A DNA stretch of 44,337 nucleotides from Candidatus Didemnitutus sp. (GTDB taxonomy: Bacteria; Verrucomicrobiota; Verrucomicrobiia; Opitutales; Opitutaceae). How positions within the stretch are numbered: position 1 is the stretch's first letter; each line of letters opens with the position of its first letter. The DNA is taken from NCBI GenBank assembly GCA_030681265.1, contig JAUXXD010000220.1, positions 1 through 44,337 on the forward strand. Reading direction: 5' to 3'. This document shows, piece after piece, positions 27,054 to 39,055 of the stretch. A model generated the notes under the pieces. That model made no database searches. It had not been told where the DNA came from and worked only from the letters and a program-made list of their open reading frames with translations. Position numbers and translations under genes: made by a program.

Positions 27054-27953
27054 ATGCAAATCGAAAACTTTAAGATTTTTGCGGATTTGGTGGAAACGAA
27101 GAGCTTCTCCAAGGCCGCAAAGTTGAACGGGATCACGCAGTCTGCTGTCAGCCAGCAGGCGCGCTCAATGGAGCGCAACTTCAAGACGCTGATGATCGAC
27201 CGTTCGCAAAAGCAGTTCAATCTCACGCGCGAAGGCCAACGCATCTACGATGCGGCCAAGGAGATCCTGCACGTTTACGAGAAGCTGCAGAGCGAGTTGC
27301 AGGAGATGAAGAAGGTCATCAGCGGCACAATCCGCATCTCGACGATTTACTCGATCGGCCTGCACGAGCTGCCGCTTTACATCAAGAAATTCCTGCACGA
27401 CTACCCGTCGGTCAACGTGCGTATCGAGTATCGTCGGTCGAATCTCGTTTACGAAGACATCCTGCACAACTCCGTCGATTTCGGCCTCGTAGCCTTCCCG
27501 CAGAAATTGCGGCAGATTGAAAACATCGCGTTCCGCAACGACCGCCTCGTGCTCATCACGCATCCGAATCACGCCTTGGCCAAGTGCGCGGAGGTCGAGC
27601 TCAAGACGCTCGCGGGCCAGAAATTTATTGGCTTCGATCCGGATATTCCGACGCGCAAGGCCGTCGATCAGATTTTCCGCGACAACAAACTCGAAATCAC
27701 TCCAGTGATGGAATTCGACAACATCGAGACGGTGAAACGTGCGGTCGAGATCGACCATGGCATCGCCATCGTGCCGCAAGCGACCGTGTTGCAAGAAATG
27801 CGTCAGGGCACGCTCGTCGCGGTGCCGTTCAAGAGCAAGGAGTTCACGCGGCCACTCGCGATACTGCATCGCAAAGGTCGCGTGTTGACCCCGGCGATGA
27901 AGAAATTCGTTGAAACCTTGACGACGGAAGCCAACCAATCGCCACAGCACTAA
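27054..27953 (+). CDS. LysR family transcriptional regulator
   Basis: A 299-residue LysR-type regulator: winged helix at residues 1-60 (FADLVETKSFSKAAKLNGIT) and a two-lobed effector domain from about 90 (GTIRISTIYSIGLHELPL). The effector domain resembles the CysB/CbbR side of the family (PVMEFDNIETVKRAVEIDHG), so a small-molecule ligand is expected; the target is unknown. It diverges from yggS across only 69 bases and is followed by a thioredoxin-like gene 57 bases later. Confidence 0.93.
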   Translation: MQIENFKIFADLVETKSFSKAAKLNGITQSAVSQQARSMERNFKTLMIDRSQKQFNLTREGQRIYDAAKEILHVYEKLQSELQEMKKVISGTIRISTIYSIGLHELPLYIKKFLHDYPSVNVRIEYRRSNLVYEDILHNSVDFGLVAFPQKLRQIENIAFRNDRLVLITHPNHALAKCAEVELKTLAGQKFIGFDPDIPTRKAVDQIFRDNKLEITPVMEFDNIETVKRAVEIDHGIAIVPQATVLQEMRQGTLVAVPFKSKEFTRPLAILHRKGRVLTPAMKKFVETLTTEANQSPQH

Positions 27954-28010
27954 GTGCTGCGCGTGGAAATTTTGGGGAACAAAGCCACCGATTCGTCCCT
28001 CTGGTATTAT

Positions 28011-28574
28011 ATGAGCAAATATTCTCTACGTGCGCTGAGCGGCGCGACTCTCGCCAGCGTCTTGGTCTGCACGGCGGCGTGCAGCAAGCAAGCCGAGCCG
28101 ACGGCGACGTCTGCGGCTCCGAAACCGGAGAGCGCGGCGGTGGCGGCGAGCACGTTACCGGTCGTGGGTGATGCGCCGGCGTTCACGTTGAAGGACCTCG
28201 AAGGGCGCGACGTGAGCTCGGATAGTTTTAAGGGTAAAGTGGTCGTCGTGGATTTCTGGGCGACTTGGTGCGGACCGTGCGTGGAAGAAATCCCCGGTTA
28301 CGTCGCGTTGCAGGAACGTTACGGCAAGAACGGCTTGGTGATCGTCGGCATCTCGCTCGACCGGCGCGGCGCGGAGCACGTGAAGAAATTTACGGTGAAG
28401 CACGGAATGAATTACGTCGTGGTAATGGGCGACGACGCCGTGGGTGAAGCGTTCGGTGGCATCGCGGCCATTCCGACCACCATCCTGATCGATCGGCAGG
28501 GCAAAATCCGGCACAAGAAAGTCGGCTCGATGCACCACGACGAATACGAAAAACTCCTCCGCCCGCTCCTTTAA
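28011..28574 (+). CDS. TlpA-like thioredoxin lipoprotein
   Basis: A 187-residue periplasmic thiol-disulfide protein. It begins with a lipoprotein signal ending LVCTAAC (lipidated Cys near residue 24), then a short Ala/Pro linker and a thioredoxin fold with the active site WATWCGPC and the cis-proline region GGIAAIPTT. TlpA/ResA-type proteins reduce cysteines, for example during cytochrome c maturation. The ATG at 28011 was chosen over an in-frame GTG at 27954 because it gives a proper signal peptide. A terminator follows. Confidence 0.9.
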
Positions 28575-28599
28575 GCGCGCGGGGCTATTTTGGGATTGA

Positions 28600-28630
28600 G
28601 GCCGGACCGGGGTGTCCGGCCTTCTCTTTA
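28600..28630 (+). terminator. Intrinsic terminator touching the EamA start
   Basis: GGCCGGAC (28600-28607) pairs with GTCCGGCC (28614-28621), followed by TTCTCTTTA. The U-rich tail ends three bases before the GTG of the next gene, so this hairpin fills the place where a ribosome-binding site would lie. Confidence 0.75.
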
Positions 28631-28633
28631 CCC

Positions 28634-29527
28634 GTGAATCTGCCGCTGCCTCTTTTCATTCCGTTAGCGTGCGCGGTATTTTACGTGCTGGCGGCGCTGA
28701 CGTTGAAACGCGCGGGCCTCGCCTATGGTGTTGGCGTGTGGCGCACCAATTTCGTCGCGAACTGGACGCTCTTCCTTGTGTTCGTGCCGTGGTGGTTCTG
28801 GCAAGGCGGCACGGTGCACCCGCTCGGCGATTATTGGCAACCGGCGGTGGCGGGACTTTGTTTTCTCGGCGGGCAAGCCTTCGTCTTTCTCGCGCTCAAC
28901 GTCGGCGATGTGTCCATCACCACGCCGGTGATGGGTTCGAAGGTGATTATGGTCGCGCTGATCAGCAGCGTGCTGCGCGTCGGCGAAGTGCCCTTGGCGT
29001 GGTGGATTGGCGCGACATTGAGCGCGTTGGCTATCGTGCTGTTGCACGCTGGAGAACGCAAAGGCGCGCACCGGCGCGTCGGGCAGACGGTCTTGCTCGC
29101 GGGGATGAGTGCGGCGTCCTTCAGTCTCGGCGACGTGTTGTTGCAAAAGTGGGTGCCGACGTGGGGCGCGGGAAATTTTTTCCCGCCGATGTTTTTGCTG
29201 GTGGGCGTCTACTCGTTCGCGTTCGTGCCGTTTTTTAGCGGCACATTGCGCGCGCTGCCCGCGCAGGGCTGGCGCTGGCTGGGCGTCGGTTCGTTGCTGA
29301 TGGCGATCAACACGGCGGGTATCGTGCTCACAATCGGCATCTGGGGCGACGCCACGGCGGTGAACATCGTCTATAGTGCGCGCGGGTTGTTCAGTGTCGT
29401 GTTCGTCTGGTCCATCGGCCACTGGTTCGCCAGCACGGAGCAGCATCTCGAACGGCGCGTGATGAAATTCCGTCTGGCCGGCGCGGCGTTGATGGTCGTA
29501 GCAATCGGGCTCGTCTTGTTCAACTGA
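28634..29527 (+). CDS. EamA-type (DMT superfamily) membrane transporter
   Basis: A 297-residue inner-membrane protein with about ten hydrophobic segments in two halves, as in EamA/DMT exporters. SITTPVMGSKVIMVALISSV in the first half and VNIVYSARGLFSVVFVW in the second occupy equivalent positions. The substrate is unknown. The GTG at 28634 opens directly on a membrane segment. There is no Shine-Dalgarno motif, and a terminator hairpin stands immediately upstream. It converges with the TPR gene with a 24-base gap. Confidence 0.82.
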   Translation: MNLPLPLFIPLACAVFYVLAALTLKRAGLAYGVGVWRTNFVANWTLFLVFVPWWFWQGGTVHPLGDYWQPAVAGLCFLGGQAFVFLALNVGDVSITTPVMGSKVIMVALISSVLRVGEVPLAWWIGATLSALAIVLLHAGERKGAHRRVGQTVLLAGMSAASFSLGDVLLQKWVPTWGAGNFFPPMFLLVGVYSFAFVPFFSGTLRALPAQGWRWLGVGSLLMAINTAGIVLTIGIWGDATAVNIVYSARGLFSVVFVWSIGHWFASTEQHLERRVMKFRLAGAALMVVAIGLVLFN

Positions 29528-29551: not shown

Positions 29552-30337
29552 TCACGGCTCGAGCTGTGCCAGTGCTTCACGGGCGCGGTGCTTGGCTGGC
29601 TCGTCGTGTTTGCCGCGACTGGGCATGGGCAAGCCTTGCTCCCACGCGGCGCGGGCGCGCGCTCGTTGTCCGTCCGCAGCGTAGGCGAATCCGAGTTCGA
29701 GGTGGTGGTTGAGTTCCTGCGGTTCGAGTGCGACCGCCTTTTCGAGATGCGCGACGGCTTGCGCGGTGCTGGCCGCCGGCAAGCCGCCATAGATCAAGCG
29801 AACCAACCACCGCGCCGGCATCCCGAGACCGGCAACTTCGTAGTGCCAACGTCCGAGCACGTGATGCGCCCACGCGTAGCCGGGATCGAGCGCGAGGGCA
29901 CGTTCGGCTTCCTCCTTCACGAGGCGGGAATACCGGACCTTGGTGCGCGTGTCGCTGTAGAGCGCGAGCTTGCCGTGGGAGATTGCAAGCGAGAGCACGT
30001 TGACGGGGTCGCTCGGCTGCAACGCCACCGCGCGCAACGAGTAGTCGAGCGCGCGTTGCGCGTAGTCTCGTTTCGCTGAATCGTCCGGCTGATCCACCAC
30101 GAGATCGGAATACTGGCGCGCGATTTTTTGCAGGACGAAGGGATCATCCGGTGCCGCCTCTGCAAGTCGCAGCAGGAGGGCCAGCGCACCTTGCGAATCA
30201 AGGCGTGCTTCCGCCGCGAGGGCTTCCTCCATGCTCGCGACAGCGGCCGCCGCACTGCCGCACAGCAGCAAACCGGCGAGCCATCGGGCCAACCTGCACC
30301 GGGCGAATCCGAATGGGACGGGGGGCGAGGAACGCAT
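29552..30337 (-). CDS. Exported TPR protein at the end of the lipid locus
   Basis: A 261-residue protein with an N-terminal signal sequence (WLAGLLLCGSAAAAVA; possible lipid attachment at the Cys is not certain) followed by tetratricopeptide repeats: AVALQPSDPVNVLSLAISHG, ALALDPGYAWAHHVLGRWHY and AVALEPQELNHHLELGFAYA. It resembles TPR proteins of the regulator-of-microtubule-dynamics type. Its start lies one base after the stop of the upstream methyltransferase gene, so it belongs to that operon; a scaffold role in the envelope is only a guess. Confidence 0.8.
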   Translation of the reverse strand: MRSSPPVPFGFARCRLARWLAGLLLCGSAAAAVASMEEALAAEARLDSQGALALLLRLAEAAPDDPFVLQKIARQYSDLVVDQPDDSAKRDYAQRALDYSLRAVALQPSDPVNVLSLAISHGKLALYSDTRTKVRYSRLVKEEAERALALDPGYAWAHHVLGRWHYEVAGLGMPARWLVRLIYGGLPAASTAQAVAHLEKAVALEPQELNHHLELGFAYAADGQRARARAAWEQGLPMPSRGKHDEPAKHRAREALAQLEP

Positions 30338-30338
30338 G

Positions 30339-31364
30339 TCAGAGTGCCGGTTTGCGGAACAGATAATGACTGACATGCCATTCAACGCCGTCGTGAAACC
30401 TCCAGAGCTCCGCGCACGAGAGATAAAACACGCGCCAGTAGCACCACCACTTGAGCGCGTGTTGGGTGCCGTAGGTTGCGGCGAAAAGCGGCATGATCTC
30501 GGCGCGGTGCGCATCCATGTTTTGCAACCAGTGCTCCGCCGTCTGCGCGTAGTGGCGGCCGTTGACTTTCCACTCTTCGACGAGACGCAAATCGTCCTGG
30601 AACTGCGGAAAGAGTCCGTGCGCGGGCATCATGCCGCCGGTGAAGAAAAACTTGCTCATCCAATCGGAGTCATCGCGCACTTCGAAGTGATAGGCCAGTT
30701 GCGCGTGAGTGAAGACGTGCGCGAAGAACAGACCGTCGGGTTTGAGCCAGCGCGCGATATTCCCCATCAAGCGCGGCCAGTTTTTCATGTGCTCGAACAT
30801 CTCGACGGAGACGACGCGGTCGAAGCCGCGGGCGGCGATGTCGAACTCGTTCATGTCGCACGTGATGATTTCGAGGTTGGTCAGGCCACGGCGCGTCGCT
30901 TCTGCGAGGATGTGCGCGCGTTGCGTGCGCGAATGGGAGACGCCGGTGATGTGCGCACGCGGATATTTAGCCGCGACCCACAGCGTCAACGATCCCCAGC
31001 CACAGCCGAGTTCGAGAATCTTCTGTCCGTTGGCGAACTGCGCGCGCTTGCACGTCAGCGCGAGCATCTGTTCCTCGGCTTCCGCGAGTGATTCGTTGCC
31101 CTGCGGATAATAGGCGGAGGAATACTTCAGCCGCGGCCCGAGACAGTATTGGTAGAATGCGGTCGGCACTTCGTAGTGCTGTTCCTTCGACTCCGTAGTG
31201 TTGACGGCGATCGGGCGAAGGCGGAGGTCAGCGGCGAAGGCGGCGACCTGTTGCGCGGGGTTCGGGTGCGCGATCTCGACGAGGCGTTGACGGAGCAGGC
31301 GCCGGATGCCGAAACGAAGCAGCCAGTTGGGCAGCAAATCACGGGAGAGCAGGGCATCAATCAT
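30339..31364 (-). CDS. CFA-synthase-like methyltransferase 2 (short form)
   Basis: A 341-residue SAM-dependent methyltransferase of the cyclopropane-fatty-acid/coclaurine N-methyltransferase group. The SAM loop is ILELGCGWGSLTLW (116-129). Against E. coli Cfa as I remember it, the bicarbonate-site glutamate (E191, VEMFEHMK) and histidine (H216, FFAHVF) are kept, while the cysteine is serine (S83, KYSSAYY). It lacks the N-terminal lipid-binding domain of Cfa. Its ATG overlaps the DUF1295 stop by 8 bases. Likely substrate: an unsaturated or previously modified acyl chain, though a small molecule is possible for the coclaurine-like branch. Confidence 0.82.
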   Translation of the reverse strand: MIDALLSRDLLPNWLLRFGIRRLLRQRLVEIAHPNPAQQVAAFAADLRLRPIAVNTTESKEQHYEVPTAFYQYCLGPRLKYSSAYYPQGNESLAEAEEQMLALTCKRAQFANGQKILELGCGWGSLTLWVAAKYPRAHITGVSHSRTQRAHILAEATRRGLTNLEIITCDMNEFDIAARGFDRVVSVEMFEHMKNWPRLMGNIARWLKPDGLFFAHVFTHAQLAYHFEVRDDSDWMSKFFFTGGMMPAHGLFPQFQDDLRLVEEWKVNGRHYAQTAEHWLQNMDAHRAEIMPLFAATYGTQHALKWWCYWRVFYLSCAELWRFHDGVEWHVSHYLFRKPAL

Positions 31365-32184
31365 GGGACAAATTGGATGGAGCGGACGGAAGTGAGGCGG
31401 CGCGGCGGGGGAACCACGGCACGAACGCCCTCGTCGTTTGCTGGTAGCGCCGGTAGGCGTCGCCTTTCGAGCGCACGGCTTGTTCCTCGGTGAGCGGAAT
31501 GCCGGTCACGCGCAGCAACAGATAAAGAATCGACGCCGGCGCGATGACCGCGGTCCAACCCCACGGCGAGGCACACGCGAAAACGAAAAAGCCGACCCAC
31601 ACGAGCCACTCGAAAAAATAATTCGGATGACGGCTGTAGCGCCACAGGCCCACGGCGCACACTTGGCCGCGGTTGGCCGCGTTGCGTTTGAAGGACGCGA
31701 GTTGCCGGTCGGCCAATGCTTCGCCACTGAGCGCGATGAGCCAAAGTGCGGCCCCGACCCACTCGAGCCAATGCATTTGCGGCGCGGGATTCAGCGCCGG
31801 CCACAGAAACGGCAACGAGAGCAAGACGACCGAGAGCGCTTGCAGTTGGAAAAAACCGAACATCTTCGGCGCGAAGTTGCCGGCCCAGTCGCGGCGCAAT
31901 TGCACGTAGCGGCCGTCCTCGACCGGATGGTGTCCGGCCACCCGGCGCAACAAGTGCGTGCCGAGACGCAGACTCCACGCCGCCGCGAGTCCCGCAATCA
32001 AGGCCCGGCGCCACGGCCAACCTTGCCCTACCAACGCGTAGAAAATCGCGACACCGGCAAACGCGTAGGACCATGCGACGTCGACCACGCCGTAGTTATC
32101 CACGCGGCGCGCCCAGAAGTAGAGCCCGGCGAAGGCGAGTCCGAGCGCGATCAAGGCGGTGAGCAGAAAGACAAGGACAGTCAT
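31357..32184 (-). CDS. DUF1295 membrane protein, steroid-5-alpha-reductase-like
   Basis: A 275-residue membrane protein with about seven hydrophobic segments. The C-terminal third has the NADPH-binding signature of the steroid 5-alpha-reductase/isoprenylcysteine methyltransferase superfamily: GLWRYSRHPNYFFEW, then EEQAVRSKGDAYRRYQ. VDVAWSYAFAG near the N terminus is typical of DUF1295. It could reduce a carbon-carbon double bond in a lipid, or have another role. It sits between DUF2062 (6-base gap) and the short methyltransferase (8-base overlap). Confidence 0.85.
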   Translation of the reverse strand: MTVLVFLLTALIALGLAFAGLYFWARRVDNYGVVDVAWSYAFAGVAIFYALVGQGWPWRRALIAGLAAAWSLRLGTHLLRRVAGHHPVEDGRYVQLRRDWAGNFAPKMFGFFQLQALSVVLLSLPFLWPALNPAPQMHWLEWVGAALWLIALSGEALADRQLASFKRNAANRGQVCAVGLWRYSRHPNYFFEWLVWVGFFVFACASPWGWTAVIAPASILYLLLRVTGIPLTEEQAVRSKGDAYRRYQQTTRAFVPWFPRRAASLPSAPSNLSHD

Positions 32185-32190
32185 GGTAAA

Positions 32191-32685
32191 TCAGGGGTTG
32201 GTGCGGCGCGCCGCTGCGAGGCGACGCAACAACGGGCGGGCGGTGAAGTAAGTTGCTCCCACCAGCAACGGCACCGTGAGCAACCAGGCGGTGAAGGCGT
32301 GCAGCCCCATCAGGCCGAAGCGCGACCAAAACTCACGCTGCGACGTCAGAAACACCTGCGTAACCTCGGCGGGATCGAACGTCGCGGCCGCCGCGCCGTA
32401 GAGCTGTTCGCCGAATTTCAGATAGACGACGATCATCGCCAATTGCGCGGGCCACAGCAGTTGGTTGACGAGATGGATGAGCGGCTGGTTGAGCTTCAGC
32501 GCGAGCGCGACGACGAAACAGAGCGCCGTGGTGAAGCCGAGAAAGGGAAACAGTCCGCACGCCACGCCGAGTCCGAGCGTGAGCGCGATTTGATCGGGCG
32601 AAATGCCCTGCTTGAGCTGCGCGACAATCGGCTGGCGCACGCGGCGTTGCCAGAATGTCGGGGAAACTGGAGCAGCGTCGGTCAC
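32191..32685 (-). CDS. DUF2062 membrane protein
   Basis: A 164-residue protein with three to four hydrophobic segments. The DUF2062 hallmark is visible: GISPDQIALTLGLGVACG followed by FPFLGFTTAL and LNQPLIHLVNQLLWPAQ. Function is not established. I chose the GTG at 32685 because it overlaps the stop of the upstream gene (GTGA) and directly precedes the domain; the frame upstream of it is a shadow of that gene. Confidence 0.82.
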   Translation of the reverse strand: MTDAAPVSPTFWQRRVRQPIVAQLKQGISPDQIALTLGLGVACGLFPFLGFTTALCFVVALALKLNQPLIHLVNQLLWPAQLAMIVVYLKFGEQLYGAAAATFDPAEVTQVFLTSQREFWSRFGLMGLHAFTAWLLTVPLLVGATYFTARPLLRRLAAARRTNP

Positions 32686-33080
32686 GCCAGCCAATAGACG
32701 GCCACCGAGAGACCGGTCAGCAGGCTCGGCAGGAACAGATGGCCGGGGTTGCGCCGCGTGAAGACGTCGGTGAGCGGACCGGTCGTGGGCACGGCGAAAA
32801 GCTCGCGCAGCATGAAGGCCGCGATGGCGAAGTTGCCGAGCAACATCAGCGCGATGAACCACAGTGCGCGCGCGAGCATGGTGCCTTCCTTCCACGCGAC
32901 CCAGACGAAGAACGCCAGGAAGGCGAAGTAGGCGTCGAAGAGCGTGGCGATGACCCACGGATCGCGAATCGTCGCGCTGCGGGCGAAATCACCGAGCGAT
33001 TGCTGCAGCGAGGCGGTGCCGGTGGCCCAGAGCATGGCCGCGATGATGGCGATAAAGAGGAAGCGCAGAAAAAGAACCAT
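32682..33080 (-). CDS. DUF1475-like small membrane protein
   Basis: A 132-residue membrane protein with three or four hydrophobic helices. RDPWVIATLFDAYFAFLAFF followed by VWVAWKEG is the landmark that I associate with DUF1475. Function unknown. It starts 8 bases after the stop of the long CFA-like gene and overlaps the DUF2062 start, so it is embedded in the lipid operon. Confidence 0.75.
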   Translation of the reverse strand: MVLFLRFLFIAIIAAMLWATGTASLQQSLGDFARSATIRDPWVIATLFDAYFAFLAFFVWVAWKEGTMLARALWFIALMLLGNFAIAAFMLRELFAVPTTGPLTDVFTRRNPGHLFLPSLLTGLSVAVYWLA

Positions 33081-33088
33081 GGCGGAAA

Positions 33089-34384
33089 TCAGAAGTTAAG
33101 GTTGTTGGGGCGGGTGTGAACGGTTTGCACCACCGAGATATTGCGCAGCGCGAAGGCCGCTTCGCAGTAGCAAAGGTAGTAATGCCATTTGCGCACGAAA
33201 CGTTCGTCGAAGCCGAGCGCGCGCACGGCGTCGAGTTTGGCATGAAAACCGTCGCGCCACAACCGCAGCGTGCGCGCGTAGTCGCGGCCCATGTCCTCCA
33301 GTTGGTGCAACAGGAAGTCACCTTCGGCGGTGAGGCAGTGATTCAGGCGATTGACCGACAGCAGCAGCGAGCCCGGGAAAATGTGCTTTTGGATAAAATC
33401 CACCCCGCGCCGGAACTGCGGATAACGCGCGTCGGGGCAGGTGATGAATTGGAGTGCCATCAGACCGTCGCGCTTGAGCAGGCGATGGCAGGCGGCGGCG
33501 AATTGCGGCAGGTAATCGTGGCCGACGGCTTCCAGCATCTCGATGGAAACGATCTTGTCGTAGTGCCCCGTGATATCGCGGTAGTCCTGTCGGCGCACTT
33601 CGATGCGGTCGCTCAAGCCCGCCGCGGCGACGCGACGCACGGCGTAGTCGTGTTGTTGTTGGGAGAGCGTGACGGTGGTGATGCGGCAGCCATAGTGCTG
33701 CGCGGCGTGCACGCACCAACCGCCCCAACCGGTGCCGATTTCGAGCACGTGGTCAGTGGATTGCAGGCGGAGTTTGCGGCAGAGCGCGTCGTTCTTGGTG
33801 ATTTGCGCTTCGAGCAAAGTTGCGTCGTCGCGTTCCCAGCGCGCGGCCGAATACATCATCGAGGGATCGAGCCAGAGGGAGAAAAAATCGTTCGAGAGAT
33901 CGTAATGCTCTGCGATGTTGCGCCGGGCGATGCGGCGGGAATTGGGGCGCAGGCGGTGGCGGAGTCGGTTGGCGGCGCGCAGCAGATTGAGGACGAGCGA
34001 GCGGGCGCGGCGCGAGCCGGAGAGCGTGGGCGCGCTGTCGTGGTTGAGCACAAACCAGCCGATGACGGCGGTGAGATCGGGCGTGTCCCAATCCCCGGCG
34101 AGGTAGGCTTCCGCGAAACCGATGTCACCTTGCAGAACGCATTTTTTGAAGAACTCCATCCGATGCACGCGCACCACGGCGGCGGCAGCGACGCCCGGCG
34201 CGAGTGGTGCGGTGGATTCGTTGTCGGCACCGAATTGTTGGATGGCACCGCCGGGCAATTCGACGCGCAGGCGGCCGCGGTTCATCGCGCCGAACGAAGC
34301 CAGCACGGCGCGCGCATAAAAGGAGGGCGAGGAAGTGGAGGTTGGAGGGAGTGAAATTGCGCGAACGGGCGCCGATGAACTCAT
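33089..34384 (-). CDS. CFA-synthase-like methyltransferase 1 with altered active site
   Basis: A 431-residue protein with the full Cfa layout: an N-terminal lipid-binding region (about 30-150), then a SAM methyltransferase domain with EHYDLSNDFFSLWLDPS, LEIGTGWGG (214-222) and the C-terminal YYLCYCEAAF. Compared with E. coli Cfa from memory, the bicarbonate-binding cysteine is Ala180 (MMYSAARW) and the histidine is Gln312 (LQFIT); the glutamate E285 (IEMLEAVG) and the tyrosine (RDYARTL) are kept. The enzyme therefore may methylate a cis double bond without forming a cyclopropane ring. It overlaps DUF1365 by four bases (ATGA), a linkage widespread in bacteria together with the flavin oxidoreductase. 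Confidence 0.88.
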   Translation of the reverse strand: MSSSAPVRAISLPPTSTSSPSFYARAVLASFGAMNRGRLRVELPGGAIQQFGADNESTAPLAPGVAAAAVVRVHRMEFFKKCVLQGDIGFAEAYLAGDWDTPDLTAVIGWFVLNHDSAPTLSGSRRARSLVLNLLRAANRLRHRLRPNSRRIARRNIAEHYDLSNDFFSLWLDPSMMYSAARWERDDATLLEAQITKNDALCRKLRLQSTDHVLEIGTGWGGWCVHAAQHYGCRITTVTLSQQQHDYAVRRVAAAGLSDRIEVRRQDYRDITGHYDKIVSIEMLEAVGHDYLPQFAAACHRLLKRDGLMALQFITCPDARYPQFRRGVDFIQKHIFPGSLLLSVNRLNHCLTAEGDFLLHQLEDMGRDYARTLRLWRDGFHAKLDAVRALGFDERFVRKWHYYLCYCEAAFALRNISVVQTVHTRPNNLNF

Positions 34385-35226
34385 AACTTACGGGAAGGGG
34401 TGAGGGACCGGTGTGGGCGATAAAGATCGCGCTGCCGGTCGGCGCGCGCGGCCTTGGCAAACCAAGGGAGTCGCTTCCACCACAATTGCAAGGCGTGCCA
34501 GTGAATCAAAAACACGACGCGCAGGGTGATGAAGGGATACTTGACGGTGAACCACGCGAGGCGCGCGTCGGTGAGCGGATGCTGTGCGCCGGTCAGGACG
34601 CTGGTGAGCGTGCGCGCGTCGCCGATATAGTCGTCGATTTGCACCGCCAACCGGTCCGTCAGCGGACGCAGCATGAAAGCGAAGGACACATCGACATCTG
34701 AGAACGGGGAAACGTAGAATTCCTTCGGCATGCGACAGCGGAAGCGTCCATCCGCCGCGGGGCGTCCAACGAAATACGGTTTCACTTCGCGAAAGGTGTT
34801 GGTGACTTCCGCCACCGCCGCGATGGGCTGGCCGCGGCAGTCGTAGCAGAAGTAGAACGACACGGGATTGAACAAGTAGCCGAGCACGCGCGGCAAGGTG
34901 ACGAGGACGATCTTGCCGCCAGTGAGATCGACCTCATGCGCGGCGAGGAAGGCCACGACGCGCGCTTTCAACGTTTGGCCATCGGCGGCGGGCGCGGGTC
35001 GGGCGGCGGGCGTGGCGTTGTGCACCGCTTCGTGCGTCGGGAAAAAATCAGCGTCCCGGAACGAGTAGAGATTGCGCTGGCCGACCGAGAAGAGGCGCAG
35101 GCGTTGGTGAAGCGCGTCGAGCTCGTCGAGATCGATGGCGAAGAAAAAAACGCGATAAAGAAAACGGTTAACCCGCGGCGAAAACCGGTGGTGCAGAATG
35201 TGGCACTCGTAGAGGCTGGAAGTCAT
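34381..35226 (-). CDS. DUF1365 protein
   Basis: A 281-residue protein of the DUF1365 family, recognised by LYECHILHHRFSPRVNRFLYRVF at the N terminus (quoted in part), GYLFNPVSFYFCYD, AVAEVTNTF and MPKEFYVSPF. Function is not established, but the family is nearly always found between an FAD oxidoreductase and a CFA-like methyltransferase, as here. The start at 35226 overlaps the end of an in-frame extension of the upstream flavoprotein frame; the stop overlaps the CFA-like ATG. Confidence 0.9.
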   Translation of the reverse strand: MTSSLYECHILHHRFSPRVNRFLYRVFFFAIDLDELDALHQRLRLFSVGQRNLYSFRDADFFPTHEAVHNATPAARPAPAADGQTLKARVVAFLAAHEVDLTGGKIVLVTLPRVLGYLFNPVSFYFCYDCRGQPIAAVAEVTNTFREVKPYFVGRPAADGRFRCRMPKEFYVSPFSDVDVSFAFMLRPLTDRLAVQIDDYIGDARTLTSVLTGAQHPLTDARLAWFTVKYPFITLRVVFLIHWHALQLWWKRLPWFAKAARADRQRDLYRPHRSLTPSRKL

Positions 35227-35303
35227 GGCGCGTGCGCGCGTGCGGAGACGCGCGCCGAGACGAGGAGCATGACTAGGATTATCAAAAACGCGAACCAGCG
35301 TGC
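35223..35303 (-). other. In-frame membrane-segment extension after the flavoprotein stop
   Basis: Directly after the TAG of the flavoprotein (35304-35306) the same frame continues for 26 codons with a strongly hydrophobic segment (WFAFLIILVMLLV) and ends in a TGA that overlaps the DUF1365 ATG. It could be a separate tiny peptide (TTG or ATG starts exist in it), a readthrough tail that would anchor the flavoprotein in the membrane, or a relic of a longer gene. No Shine-Dalgarno motif is present. Confidence 0.4.
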
Positions 35304-36608
35304 CTAATTTTTCTCAGGTGCGGTCCACGGATCGCGACCGAGGAGTTGGCGCGCAAGATTCACGGCGGAAAGAAAGCCGTCCTCGTGGAAGCCGTAACGT
35401 GTCCACGCGCCGCAGAAATACGTTTCGGTGCCGCCGGCGGCGGCGCCGTTGAGCGCGGGAATCTCCGTCTGCGCGCGCACGGCACCGAGGGTGAACAACG
35501 GATGTTCGTAGGCGATGGTGCGGAGCAATTTTGCCGGATCGACGCGGTCGGCGCCGTTGATCGAGACGAAATAATTCTCGCGCTCCGAGACACCTTGCAG
35601 GCGATTCATCCAGTAGTTCGTCATCGGTTGCACCGCGCCGTTGGCGTCGCGGGCGATGGAGTAGTTCCACGCGGACCACGCCAGTTTCGTGCGCGGCATG
35701 ATCGAGGCGTCGGTGTGCAGCGTCGCGGTGTTGGGTTGGTAACGGAACTCGCGCAACAGGCGGGTTTCGTCGGTGGTGGCGTCGCCGAGAAGCGCGAGCG
35801 AGGTGTGGCCGTGCGTGGCGAAGATAAGTTTATCGAAGCGCGAGGTGGCCCCGTCGCGCGTCGTCACGAATACGCCGTCGGGGGAGCGGCGCACGGCGGT
35901 GACGCCGCGACCGCGTTGGATGCGTTCGCGCCACGGAGCCGTGAGGCGTTGCACGTATTGTTCGGCGCCGCCGTCGACCGTCCACCACTGGTGTTGGGTG
36001 GAGAGGCCGAGAAAGCCGTGGTTGTGGAAAAACCGCAGCAGCGTGCGCGCGGGAAAGAGCCGCATTTGCGCGGGCGGCGTGGACCACACGGCGCTGCTCA
36101 TGGGCACGAGGTAGAGGTCGAGGAAATCGCTGCCGTAGCCACGGCGCTGCACGTAGTCGGCGAGCGTGAGGTCGGCCCAGTGCGGGTCGTCGAGGGCGGC
36201 GAGCGCGTCGCGGTTGAAGCGGTCGATTTGCCGCAACATCCGGTAGAAGGACGGCCGCAGGAGGTTGCGGCGCTGGCAAAACAGGTGGTTGAGCGACGAG
36301 CCGCCGAACTCGAGTCCCGTATCCTCGTGGCGCACGCTGAAGGACATGTCGGTTTTCTTCACCGGCACCGCCAGCGCGGAGAAAAGCCGCGTGAGTTGCG
36401 GGTAGGTCTCGTAGTTGAAGACCATGAAGCCGGTGTCGATCGGCACGGGCCGGGCGGTGTCGCGCTCGGGCACGGTGACGGTGTGCGTGTGGCCACCGAT
36501 GCGGTTGTCCTCTTCAAACACCGTCAGGTCGAACTCGTGGTGCAGAAAATGCGCGCAGCCAAGACCGGAGATACCGGAACCGATGATGGCGAGCGTGGGA
36601 CGGGACAC
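35304..36608 (-). CDS. FAD-dependent amine-oxidase-like oxidoreductase
   Basis: A 434-residue flavoprotein with an N-terminal FAD-binding loop (IIGSGISGLGCAHFL, residues 8-22) followed by DLTVFEEDNRIGGHTHT and PIDTGFMVFN. The C terminus has the second FAD motif TYFCGAWTRYGFHEDG. This is the group that accompanies DUF1365 and CFA-like proteins and that is fused to cyclopropane synthase in plants. Relatives act on acyl chains: UfaD in alphaproteobacterial furan fatty acid synthesis, and a partner of 10-methyl branched fatty acid synthesis in actinobacteria. The start is a GTG at 36608. It lies 74 bases after the desaturase and 77 bases before DUF1365. Confidence 0.88.
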   Translation of the reverse strand: MSRPTLAIIGSGISGLGCAHFLHHEFDLTVFEEDNRIGGHTHTVTVPERDTARPVPIDTGFMVFNYETYPQLTRLFSALAVPVKKTDMSFSVRHEDTGLEFGGSSLNHLFCQRRNLLRPSFYRMLRQIDRFNRDALAALDDPHWADLTLADYVQRRGYGSDFLDLYLVPMSSAVWSTPPAQMRLFPARTLLRFFHNHGFLGLSTQHQWWTVDGGAEQYVQRLTAPWRERIQRGRGVTAVRRSPDGVFVTTRDGATSRFDKLIFATHGHTSLALLGDATTDETRLLREFRYQPNTATLHTDASIMPRTKLAWSAWNYSIARDANGAVQPMTNYWMNRLQGVSERENYFVSINGADRVDPAKLLRTIAYEHPLFTLGAVRAQTEIPALNGAAAGGTETYFCGAWTRYGFHEDGFLSAVNLARQLLGRDPWTAPEKN

Positions 36609-36682
36609 GAGAGGATGAATGGGCGCCTAACGCACCAGACCGACCGGAGTGATTCGCATTGGCGGAATCGTCGGGCGGCGGA

Positions 36683-37849
36683 TTAATTTGAATCCGTGGA
36701 GGCGGGCGGTTGCTCGGCCAGTTCGGAGACGTCCTTGTGGATGACGGGACCGTCAGCTTTCTTGATCTGTGCGGCGACTTCGGGGGAGTTGACCGTGGCG
36801 AGGGCGATGGCGGCGGCAGTGGGGAGCACGCGCTTTAGCGTGTTGATTTCGTCCTGCACGGAGGAGAGCGTCATGCGGTGGATGGTGTCCTTGTGCGCGG
36901 CGATTTCGGCTTCGCGATAGATGGACGGCGGCACGGGTTTGAAGCCCCCGATGAAGCCGGTCCAGGAAAGGAGTTTCAGGCCGTAGTAAGTCGGGTCGAT
37001 TTCCCACCAATAGAAACCGTTGCGCGTGGCGGATTGGTAGCGGTGGTGGTTGTTGTGCCAGCCTTCGCCGAGTGTGATGAGCGCGAGAATAAAACTGTTG
37101 CGCGAATCGTCCTCGGTTTGAAACCGGCGGCGGCCCATGAGGTGGGCGAGGGAATTGATGCAGGAGGTGCCGTGGAAGAGTGCCGTGGTGCTGATGAAGA
37201 AGCCCCACACGAGGAGTTGGCTGCCGCTGGTGCCGAGGCCGGGCGCGTAGGTTTCGAGCAACGAGCCGAGCCCGAGCAAACCGGCGGCAAACAGCACGGG
37301 CACGACGATATCGAAGCGGTTGAGCCAGACGAGTTCGGGGTATTTGGCGAGGTCCTTGATTTTGGAGTAGTCGGTCGGAAAATTACGGCGGCTCGTGATC
37401 CAGCCGATGTGCGACCACCAGAAGCCGTGCACGTGCGGCGAATGGGCGTCTTCGGGGTCGTCGGAGTGCAGGTGATGGTGGCGATGGTGATAGGCCCACC
37501 AGAGTGCGCCGCGCTGCACGGCGGTGGCACCCCAAACGGCGAGGAGAAACTGGCCGAAGCGCGACGTGCTGTAGGTTTTGTGCGAGAAATAGCGGTGGTA
37601 GATGCCCGTGACGGCGAACATGCGCACGACGTAGAGAAAGATGGCCGCTGCGACCGCGAACCAGCTCCAGCCCACCCAAAGCACACCCAGACAGCCGAGA
37701 TGGAGGATGGCGAAGGGGATGCAGCGGACGAAATTGACGCCATCGGGCCGGGCGCGGGTAACTTCCGGCGGTTCAGAGGTGTAGTCGGAATCGATCCACT
37801 GGATGAGTGAAGCGCCGAAGCGAGCGAGGAGGGATTTGGAAGCAGGCAC
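36683..37849 (-). CDS. Acyl-CoA/acyl-lipid delta-9-type fatty-acid desaturase
   Basis: A 388-residue membrane di-iron desaturase. The three histidine boxes are HRYFSH (about 84-89), HHRHHHLHSDDPEDAH (about 120) and HNNHH (about 265), with four hydrophobic segments between them. FYWWEIDPTYYGLKLLSW is typical of acyl-CoA delta-9 enzymes. A 70-residue charged tail follows. It would create the cis double bond that CFA-like enzymes need. I chose the GTG at 37849; upstream residues in the frame are low-complexity shadows of the next gene. First gene of the lipid locus; no clear promoter is visible, but a 6-bp hairpin lies at 37931-37945. Confidence 0.9.
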   Translation of the reverse strand: MPASKSLLARFGASLIQWIDSDYTSEPPEVTRARPDGVNFVRCIPFAILHLGCLGVLWVGWSWFAVAAAIFLYVVRMFAVTGIYHRYFSHKTYSTSRFGQFLLAVWGATAVQRGALWWAYHHRHHHLHSDDPEDAHSPHVHGFWWSHIGWITSRRNFPTDYSKIKDLAKYPELVWLNRFDIVVPVLFAAGLLGLGSLLETYAPGLGTSGSQLLVWGFFISTTALFHGTSCINSLAHLMGRRRFQTEDDSRNSFILALITLGEGWHNNHHRYQSATRNGFYWWEIDPTYYGLKLLSWTGFIGGFKPVPPSIYREAEIAAHKDTIHRMTLSSVQDEINTLKRVLPTAAAIALATVNSPEVAAQIKKADGPVIHKDVSELAEQPPASTDSN

Positions 37850-37950
37850 GAGCGATGAAGTAGAAGTGAGCGGGTAACAAAAAGCCCGTCGGCAGAATGT
37901 GCAAGTCGGGTTTGTGTCACGGGTGGTCGGCGCACCGCTGGTGCGTAGGC

Positions 37951-37982
37951 ATAAAAAAACCGCCCCAAATAGTGGGGCGGTT
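37951..37982 (-). terminator. Terminator of the Ala-rich exported protein gene
   Basis: AACCGCCCC (37958-37966) pairs with GGGGCGGTT (37974-37982); the minus-strand tail is a run of seven T residues. It lies 21 bases after the stop at 38004 and insulates the lipid locus from it. Confidence 0.92.
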
Positions 37983-38003: not shown

Positions 38004-38726
38004 TCAACCGCTGCGGACCGTCGTGTCAAGAGGGTTGCCGCCCGTGCCCGTGCCCGTGCCGGTGTCCGTGCCCGTGCCGGTGTCCGTGCCTGTGCCTGTG
38101 CCGGTGCCGGCGCCGGCGCTGGTGCTGGTGCCGGTGCTCGTGCTCGCGGGAAGAGTGATATTGTTTGTTGCGGCTGCAACCAGCACGGCGGGCTCAGCAA
38201 CGATCGTCGTCACATTGCTGTTGATCGCCGCCACGGTGGTGGTCGGTGTGGCTGCAATAACTTGAGCATTCGTGGAGACAGTATTGGAGCTGATGGCAAT
38301 TTGGGCGGCTTGAGCTGGAGCGTTGGTCATGACCACTGGGGTCGCACCAACAGCAGCAGCGGTTGCTACGATGGTTGCGGCAACAAGCGGGTTTGCCTGT
38401 ATGACAGCTGGATTAGCGGCGGTCGCAGCGGCGACTTGAGCGACTTTGGCGGCCGCGACAGCAGCCGGTGCGGTAACGCCAGCTGCTGTAACTGCGACTT
38501 GCGCGGCGTTAGCGGCGGCTTGAGCAATCTGCGCGGCCTTGGCTGGCGTTGCGTTATTAACCAGAGCCTGCAGCGCAACGGTGTCGCCGGTGCGAATAGC
38601 TTCGGCAATCACGGCATTATCGTCGGCGGTAAGATCGGACGCTTGGGCAAAGGCGGAAGTGAGGGTAAGCGTGGTCGCGACTGCGAGCGCTGCGAGAAGG
38701 CGGAAGTGTTTTTGGAACGATTTCAT
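38004..38726 (-). CDS. Exported Ala/Thr-rich low-complexity protein
   Basis: A 240-residue protein of unknown function. A signal peptide (LLAALAVATTLTLTSAFAQA) is followed by a helical region with acidic residues (LTADDNAVIAEAIRTGD), then about 130 residues dominated by Ala, Val, Thr and Asn with short periodic motifs, and a C-terminal Gly-Thr repeat tract (TGTGTGTDTGTGTDTG). The tract is encoded by hexanucleotide repeats. It looks like a surface or matrix protein. The ATG at 38726 was chosen; another in frame lies three codons upstream. A strong terminator follows. Confidence 0.75.
   Translation of the reverse strand: MKSFQKHFRLLAALAVATTLTLTSAFAQASDLTADDNAVIAEAIRTGDTVALQALVNNATPAKAAQIAQAAANAAQVAVTAAGVTAPAAVAAAKVAQVAAATAANPAVIQANPLVAATIVATAAAVGATPVVMTNAPAQAAQIAISSNTVSTNAQVIAATPTTTVAAINSNVTTIVAEPAVLVAAATNNITLPASTSTGTSTSAGAGTGTGTGTDTGTGTDTGTGTGTGGNPLDTTVRSG
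38041..38146. repeat. Hexanucleotide GTGCCN-type repeat tract
   Basis: About 17 imperfect copies of a six-base GTGCCC/GTGCCG/GTGTCC unit fill this interval inside the 3' part of the Ala-rich gene. They encode Gly-Thr and Asp-Thr dipeptides on the minus strand. Because the unit is a multiple of three, copy-number change would lengthen or shorten the protein without a frameshift. Confidence 0.85.
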
Positions 38727-39055
38727 AGTCAGCATTGGTTCAACGAGAGTTACGATGGACAAAGACGAGAGCGGTTAAAGCAAATTCTTTGCTCAGGGCC
38801 AATCCTAAACTGTCAACTATCTGACTCGGTGGCGACGAGCAGAGAGAGGAGGGCGAGGATAATGACGGTGGTGAGCATGGCGAAGGACGCGGCAGCGAGG
38901 GTAGGCAGTCGGAATGTTGACGGCGCAGGAGCCGTGCCGATTACCAACTGAACACACACGCGGGCGTGGAAAAGTGGCTGAAAAGATGCAGCCCAGCACT
39001 TTCCGCAAGCTAATCCGGCAACTATCAGTGACGTGCGAGACAGGCGGCGTTGCCG
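38727..39055. other. Non-coding gap with small hydrophobic ORF
   Basis: This 329-base gap separates the Ala-rich gene from the exporter operon. A small hairpin (38779-38784 with 38788-38793) lies about 50 bases upstream of the Ala-rich start. A 21-codon hydrophobic minus-strand ORF (38813-38878) is listed separately. The rest shows nothing I can name, and no terminator for the exporter operon is clear. Confidence 0.4.
38813..38878 (-). pseudogene. Possible remnant of a pseudopilin N terminus
   Basis: A 21-residue reading frame, MLTTVIILALLSLLVATESDS, consists of one hydrophobic helix. The frame is open upstream (PTLAAASFAMLTTVIILAL) and resembles the N-terminal helix of type IV pseudopilins, but the prepilin cleavage glycine and the Glu at position 5 are missing. 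It may be a decayed fragment, a tiny membrane peptide, or chance. Confidence 0.25.

Follow-up and report, generated by a model that had tools for sequence, protein, structure and literature searches.

What does a bacterial locus make that encodes a desaturase, a flavoprotein, a DUF1365 protein and two methyltransferases in one series? The question is raised by a stretch of 44,337 nucleotides from Candidatus Didemnitutus sp. (Opitutaceae, Verrucomicrobiota; contig JAUXXD010000220.1), referred to here as the window, in which nine genes lie on the minus strand between positions 29552 and 37849. A sequence-only reading of this DNA had proposed a single pathway that makes a double bond, methylates it and oxidises the product, and had left the end product unnamed. 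The one-pathway idea fits the evidence presented below. A product can now be proposed as well, because four of the genes match UfaD, UfaO, UfaM and FufM of a published pathway (Lemke et al., PMC7380195): the locus likely encodes a consolidated, oxygen-dependent route from phospholipid acyl chains to dimethyl furan fatty acids (furan fatty acids, FuFA). Furan, methylene and mid-chain methyl products had all been considered plausible; the joint presence of UfaD, UfaO and FufM favours the furan and speaks against methylene or plain mid-chain methyl chains.

A candidate operon for furan fatty acid synthesis

The nine genes are arranged in the order desaturase-UfaD-UfaO-UfaM-DUF1475-DUF2062-DUF1295-FufM-TPR. 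Their coordinates and Pfam matches (FA_desaturase, Amino_oxidase, DUF1365, CMAS, DUF1475, DUF2062, DUF1295, CMAS and RMD1-3/TPR) agree with the strand and order claimed earlier, and the description of the last seven genes as overlapping or separated by at most 8 bases was exact: the spacings from the DUF1365 gene to the TPR gene are -4, 8, -4, 6, -8 and 1 bases. The two leading gaps, between desaturase and flavoprotein and between flavoprotein and DUF1365, measure 74 and 77 bases.

We compared the encoded proteins with those of eight named Rhodopseudomonas genomes, which are congeners of R. palustris CGA009, CGA009 itself being outside the set. Equivalents of UfaD, UfaO and UfaM were present in all eight. 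The window flavoprotein (35304-36608; Amino_oxidase PF01593, 3e-21), which resembles flavin amine oxidases, is 37-39% identical to the product of the gene preceding DUF1365 in Rhodopseudomonas, and the DUF1365 protein (34381-35226; PF07103, 3e-70) is 33-37% identical to the UfaO equivalents. A UfaD-type flavoprotein gene is thus followed by a UfaO-type gene. UfaD is reported to form a methyl diene and UfaO to form the furan using O2 (PMC7380195), and we predict the same two activities, conversion of a methyl-monoene to a methyl-diene and O2-dependent furan formation, for the window proteins. The profile of UfaO had no relative among solved structures at E values up to 1, and the models predicted from the single sequences of DUF1295 and UfaO were of unusable quality, with mean predicted local distance difference test scores (pLDDT) of 53.6 and 32.1.

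The first gene (36683-37849, GTG start; PF00487, 4e-17) encodes an acyl-CoA/acyl-lipid desaturase with the His-rich motifs HRYFSH, HHRHHH and HNNHH. Its best match in the PDB is acyl-CoA desaturase 1 (2e-24), and its closest solved relatives are delta-9 enzymes. This desaturase is the sole PF00487 match in two genomes of the same genus, and the window's genome holds one more.

Measured against UfaM-UfaD-UfaO of Rhodobacter sphaeroides and RPA2569-2571 of R. palustris, as described in PMC7380195, the window has homologs of all three proteins. As in all eight Rhodopseudomonas genomes, UfaD and UfaO are adjacent in the same order; as in Rhodopseudomonas, UfaM stands beside UfaO, and the UfaM active-site signature is shared. 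Unlike these Ufa systems, the window joins the desaturase, FufM, DUF1295, DUF1475, DUF2062 and an exported-looking TPR protein to them in one operon.

Two methyltransferases of different kinds

Judged by their sequences, the two METHYLTRANSFERASES of the locus are of different kinds, and the second is not of the cyclopropane fatty acid (CFA) synthase type. Both had been called CFA-like in the sequence-only reading; the first (33089-34384, annotated as CFA synthase) falls into the UfaM clade, and the second (30339-31364; Pfam CMAS) lies on the coclaurine N-methyltransferase branch. Among PDB sequences, the best match of the second enzyme is coclaurine N-methyltransferase (4e-73); CFA synthase scores just 1e-26. 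It is 47-50% identical to proteins in seven of the eight Rhodopseudomonas genomes searched, and in all seven a DUF1295 gene lies directly upstream of the FufM equivalent, as in the window. Going by this synteny, RPA0923-RPA0924 would be the DUF1295-FufM pair; a strain deleted for RPA0923 is listed in PMC7380195. In R. palustris, FufM has been shown to methylate the monomethyl furan fatty acid and so give the dimethyl form, both in the cell and in vitro (Lemke et al., PMC7380195). It shares 37.9% identity with Arabidopsis LIME1 (PMC10940516), and the window enzyme is, like FufM (RPA0924) and LIME1/AtFUFM1, similar to coclaurine N-methyltransferase. The Rhodopseudomonas DUF1295-FufM pair lies apart from UfaD-UfaO-UfaM, whereas the window holds all of them in the same operon. 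Taken together, the PDB match and the identity to, and synteny with, the CGA009 congeners point to a FufM-type methylase, predicted to turn the monomethyl into the dimethyl furan.

The first methyltransferase groups in a tree with the Rhodopseudomonas genes adjoining DUF1365, apart from E. coli Cfa and from Rhodopseudomonas paralogs. Tree and residues thus place it in the UfaM clade, the reference being the Rhodopseudomonas genes beside UfaO rather than R. sphaeroides UfaM itself. Like E. coli Cfa, to which it is about 34% identical along the aligned stretch, it belongs to the CMAS family. The bicarbonate ligands of cyclopropane synthase are C139 and H266 (E. coli Cfa numbering); the window UfaM carries Ala and Gln at these positions and so lacks both. 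The second methyltransferase, in its separate clade, has Ser, His and Phe at 139, 266 and 268.

To see how general this replacement is, we assembled 77 CFA-type entries, of which 74 were aligned (three were dropped for stops, length or cut ends) and 73 were distinct. Sixty-seven of the 73 are encoded no more than 3 kb from UfaO; Gln occupies position 266 in every one of these, and Cys is absent at 139 in 66. Three further proteins of FuFA loci, where UfaO is cut off or farther away, likewise combine Gln with Ser, and Cys and His are kept in the remaining three (E. coli Cfa and two Rhodopseudomonas paralogs). The Gln and Ser pattern was also found in Streptomyces, Rhodococcus, Tsukamurella and Salinivibrio, in four of four loci tested. 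A lost bicarbonate base would fit an enzyme that ends at the methyl-alkene instead of the cyclopropane. Among the 'CFA' genes compared, Gln in place of His at the bicarbonate site is a residue rule that splits UfaM-type enzymes from true cyclopropane synthases. Separately, a Rhodococcus erythropolis plasmid carries an unannotated and seemingly broken second CFA-like frame between UfaM and DUF1295 (locus L194, 5595-6905).

Conservation of gene order

We sampled 120 genomes from the window's family, counting FufM at E values up to 1e-40. FufM was found in 77 of them, DUF1365 in 79 and full-length DUF1295 in 76. About 9 kb on either side of FufM was retrieved for 60 of the 77 genomes; the window's own genome and 16 others, several with a match that was split or near a contig end, were left out. 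Fifty-one loci, all from other genomes of the family, have a FufM at least 55% identical to that of the window (type 1). In every one of the 51, those of the first eight genes that are present stand in the same order. At least three of the eight genes occur in 47, with the order kept in every one, and all eight in 26. The exceptions hold only DUF1295-FufM (3/51) or only FufM, at a contig end (1/51), and some incomplete loci end at a contig edge. DUF1475 is present in 42 of the 51, DUF2062 in 37 and the TPR gene downstream of FufM in 33. This linkage is more than chance. Scattered, unlinked homologs in relatives, named earlier as the pattern that would speak against the locus, are thus mostly not what is seen, the three loci where DUF1295-FufM stand apart being the qualification.

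In the other nine loci (type 2), UfaD-UfaO-UfaM-FufM are joined downstream by a less similar desaturase (26-30% identity). DUF1295 precedes FufM in three of these loci, comes after the desaturase in one and is missing from the stretch in five. Beyond the family, an Acinetobacter WY4 plasmid carries desaturase-UfaD-UfaO-CFA-DUF1295-FufM in the same order as the window. UfaD, UfaO, CFA, DUF1295 and FufM are arranged differently on Burkholderia, Mesorhizobium and Cupriavidus plasmids, and a Shinella plasmid holds UfaD, UfaO, DUF1295 and FufM without a CFA-type gene. Near these proteobacterial plasmid loci lie sigma/anti-sigma genes (named ChrR in Shinella and Mesorhizobium) and photolyase or lipocalin genes. 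As a side observation, FuFA genes of Proteobacteria are accompanied by a photolyase in loci L185 and L196, and by GTP cyclohydrolase I and DUF2177 genes in L185 and L190. The company of photolyase and GTP cyclohydrolase I suggests a wider light-stress module.

DUF1295 as a further member of the gene set

The seventh gene (31357-32184; PF06966, 1e-69; Steroid_dh, 3.5e-8) encodes a DUF1295 membrane protein. Strong DUF1295 matches occur in 76 of the 77 FufM genomes of the window's family and in none of the 43 that lack FufM, genomes with weak matches only being counted as lacking (three here, two in the family below). This co-occurrence is in part explained by joint inheritance of the operon, yet the five genomes whose type-2 locus lacks DUF1295 carry a full-length copy elsewhere. 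We also surveyed the 149 genomes of the alphaproteobacterial family of R. pseudopalustris, in which FufM occurs in 39, strong DUF1295 in 57 and DUF1365 in 69. All 57 DUF1295 genomes contain DUF1365, and 34 of the 39 FufM genomes contain DUF1295; 54 of the 58 DUF1295 genes adjoin FufM (33) or sit within 6 kb of UfaO (37). In the window's family DUF1295 and FufM go together almost without exception, but a strict coupling was rejected, as it is broken in the alphaproteobacterial family, where the tie is to UfaO, and in five of the nine type-2 loci.

Independent support for a tie between DUF1295 and FuFA comes from Chlamydomonas, where singlet oxygen induces a set of genes in a SAK1-dependent manner; this set contains two of the CFA type (one also listed under coclaurine N-methyltransferase) together with DUF1365 and DUF1295 genes (PMC4067076). 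Within the literature found that names DUF1295, no title concerned furan fatty acids, and PMC4067076 was the sole paper that named DUF1365 and DUF1295 together. DUF1295 is another conserved component of the set of FuFA genes, and the tie is apparently new.

To gauge what DUF1295 might do, we built a profile from 19 aligned proteins (out of 92 entries, 72 with clean frames). All its matches to solved proteins are remote: ICMT at 1.3e-4, delta14-sterol reductases at 2.6e-3 and 0.014, and 5-alpha-reductases at 0.022 and 0.19. DUF1295 shares the RHPNY region with these three groups and is, like them, hydrophobic and membrane-like. Its invariant stretches, Q...F and SRHPNYF, align on like residues of two delta14-sterol reductases. 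An ene-dione is the type of enone reduced by the steroid/sterol reductase superfamily, and loss of water from a saturated 1,4-diketone can give a furan ring (Paal-Knorr chemistry). Furan fatty acids are reported to be oxidised to dioxoenes (PMC12595405) and to be destroyed by singlet oxygen (PMC6852236). The formation of dioxoenes, an enone-reducing superfamily and diketone-to-furan chemistry together make recycling or detoxification of oxidised FuFA our leading proposal for DUF1295. Our weakly held view is that this membrane protein most likely reduces oxidised FuFA in an NAD(P)H-dependent way, with NADPH as the proposed cofactor. A bolder extension, which we regard as speculative and rather unlikely, is that FuFA form a renewable shield: singlet oxygen would convert the furan to an ene-dione, DUF1295 would reduce the central double bond, and the diketone would reclose to the furan.

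Several findings count against such a role. The profile scores ICMT, a methyltransferase, above the reductases (1.3e-4 against 2.6e-3 and weaker); 23 of the 57 alphaproteobacterial DUF1295 genomes have no FufM at the threshold used, and five of the 39 FufM genomes lack strong DUF1295. In vitro, and likewise in R. sphaeroides, FufM alone was enough to yield the dimethyl form (PMC7380195), so DUF1295 is not needed for the dimethyl step. Given the 23 genomes without FufM, the tie of DUF1295 is to the furan locus in general. DUF1295 might instead be an ICMT-like S-adenosylmethionine (SAM) methyltransferase, or a diene/alkene reductase yielding a saturated methyl-branched chain, and we give these options together a substantial chance, somewhat short of even. 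They draw on the top profile match and on the RHP-Y motif, which is common to ICMT and the reductases. The ICMT match, however, spans only the region from SRHPNYF to the C terminus, whereas both invariant stretches align with the two delta14-sterol reductases; the pathway already holds two dedicated methyltransferases; and reduction of the diene would drain it. Reduction of oxidised FuFA remains the role we prefer.

Proposed pathway and competing explanations

The UfaM, UfaD, UfaO and FufM steps have been shown experimentally in Rhodobacter and Rhodopseudomonas (PMC7380195 and works cited there); for the window we assign them from homology, active-site residues and gene order. The desaturase would introduce a cis double bond, giving a monoene. 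UfaM would then methylate this bond with SAM, leaving a mid-chain methyl trans-alkene instead of a cyclopropane, which UfaD would desaturate to a methyl conjugated diene. UfaO, using O2, would close the monomethyl furan, and FufM would add the second ring methyl, yielding a dimethyl furan fatty acid whose chain derives from the monoene that the desaturase made. If the desaturase is a delta-9 enzyme, the ring would span C8-C11, compared with C10-C13 in the R. palustris product. Within the membrane, such a lipid would be expected to react with singlet oxygen.

Could the locus make something else? A cyclopropane or mid-chain methyl (tuberculostearate-like) lipid, with the flavoprotein or DUF1295 reducing the cyclopropane or methylene chain, is suggested by the Pfam CMAS matches of both methyltransferases and by the remote kinship of DUF1295 to sterol and 5-alpha reductases. 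We consider it highly improbable, as His and Cys of the bicarbonate site are replaced by Gln and Ala, the second methyltransferase is of the FufM type, and DUF1365 (UfaO) accompanies FufM in 76 of the family's 77 FufM genomes; on the strength of these residues and gene partners, a cyclopropane or 10-methyl product is rejected as the best reading. It is likewise improbable that the locus makes FuFA but stops at the monomethyl form, the second methyltransferase doing other work such as amine N-methylation. The closest solved relatives of that enzyme are indeed alkaloid N-methyltransferases, and its identity to the Rhodopseudomonas FufM equivalents is just 47-50%; these equivalents nevertheless share the DUF1295 neighbour, the gene is joined to the UfaD-UfaO-UfaM operon, and an amine-pathway gene is absent among the nine.

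The dimethyl furan assignment itself has evidence against it. Identities to the Rhodopseudomonas enzymes are moderate (33-50%) and refer to congeners rather than to CGA009. The relative Congregicoccus parvus ASA1 (class Opitutae) apparently has all nine genes, and furan fatty acids are not among the acids of its published profile, which comprises anteiso-C15:0, C16:0, C16:1 omega-7, C18:1 and minor acids (PMC12193912). This weighs against abundant, constitutive FuFA production. The profile was obtained by hot acid methanolysis and gas chromatography (PMC12193912), and such methanolysis, together with non-inducing growth, could hide a minor furan lipid.

Regulation

In 24 of 33 family loci, the window among them, the motif CTTGC is found 30-100 nt upstream of the desaturase. 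The background is 5.4% of random 75-mers and 10 of 105 control genes, these last taken from a simple gene caller that merged and mislabelled some open reading frames and otherwise served just to choose neighbours for Pfam. It is rare before UfaD (1/34) and occurs before UfaO in 11 of 43 cases. This enrichment indicates that the desaturase is probably the first gene of the unit. The window copy (37901-37905), 56 nt before the desaturase start, resembles a -35 element and is the probable promoter of the unit; just upstream of it, a hairpin followed by a T-run (about 37953-37980, read by eye) would end the unit of the preceding gene.

GCATCC-N16-CGTA, which judged by eye has the shape of an extracytoplasmic function (ECF)-type promoter, occurs within 140 nt upstream of UfaO in 15 of 43 cases, of the desaturase in 5 of 33 (two with N17), of UfaD in 3 of 34 and of DUF1295 in 2 of 38. 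The N16 form is found at least once in 20 of 52 loci, and GCATCC/CGTA matches with spacers of 14-19 number 60, compared with 20 in shuffled sequence. Matches before FufM were discarded because they seem to fall within the DUF1295 coding sequence. None of the operon genes of the window has the motif upstream; two matches in the window sit elsewhere.

Regulator genes accompany some of the loci. In the window's family, ECF sigma and RskA-type anti-sigma genes are found inside or beside FuFA loci L027 and L059 (by Pfam) and L077 (by similarity), and a sigma gene also in L037 and L051. Control in R. sphaeroides is by RpoE-ChrR (ECF11); in the window, no sigma, anti-sigma or ChrR gene is present among the ten neighbouring proteins searched, and a relative's RskA was not found in the window's genome in a search without positive control. 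A MerR-family regulator directly precedes UfaD in eight of the nine type-2 loci (L078-L080 and L082-L086; identified by Pfam in L079 and by similarity in the others). The FuFA genes of Streptomyces (L193) and Salinivibrio (L196) likewise have MerR genes in their vicinity.

In L195, a plasmid of Tsukamurella, the order is UfaD-UfaO-CFA-lipocalin-sigK-anti-sigma, a parallel to the sigma-linked loci of the window's family. Rv0449c-Rv0446c of Mycobacterium tuberculosis may represent the same four families. M. tuberculosis sigK is autoregulated via the Rv0449c promoter, and the SigK signal is described as unknown (PMC7509140). SigK would gain a physiological context from the sigma and RskA-type genes that adjoin certain loci of Actinobacteria and Verrucomicrobiota.

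Accessory and neighbouring genes

DUF1475 (32682-33080; PF07343, 7e-10) and DUF2062 (32191-32685; PF09835, 2e-11), the latter with a GTG start that overlaps the preceding stop, are small, membrane-like proteins with three hydrophobic segments each. The product of the last gene (29552-30337; PF21033, 4e-9) is an RMD1-3-family TPR protein whose N-terminal residues 16-34 form a hydrophobic, signal-like segment. It matches the solved domain of Regulator of microtubule dynamics protein 3 (PDB 7cc7, 1.4e-9), also called PTPIP51. The TPR domain of PTPIP51 is reported to bind phospholipids and to transfer phosphatidic acid in vitro (cited in PMC9239997), and by analogy the RMD1-3-like protein may be a lipid binder or carrier. 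Other FuFA loci have lipocalin or chalcone-isomerase-like genes in their neighbourhood, so such loci may repeatedly be accompanied by an exported protein that binds lipids.

A gene that stops just ahead of the operon (38004-38762) encodes a protein that looks secreted, is rich in Ala and Thr, carries a tail of Gly-Thr repeats and has no Pfam match. Downstream of the operon, an EamA-like transporter, a TlpA-like redoxin and a LysR regulator are encoded (27054-29527); loci L028, L030 and L031 have similar neighbours.

Implications

The locus is probably a complete, single-operon pathway for dimethyl furan fatty acids in Verrucomicrobiota, and the findings attach DUF1295, an unassigned family, to furan fatty acid biology in several phyla. 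If DUF1295 regenerates the oxidised lipid, the locus would encode a catalytic scavenging cycle rather than a sacrificial lipid that is used once. The same gene set would then underlie singlet-oxygen defence in Verrucomicrobiota, Proteobacteria, Actinobacteria (where some loci are linked to SigK) and green algae.

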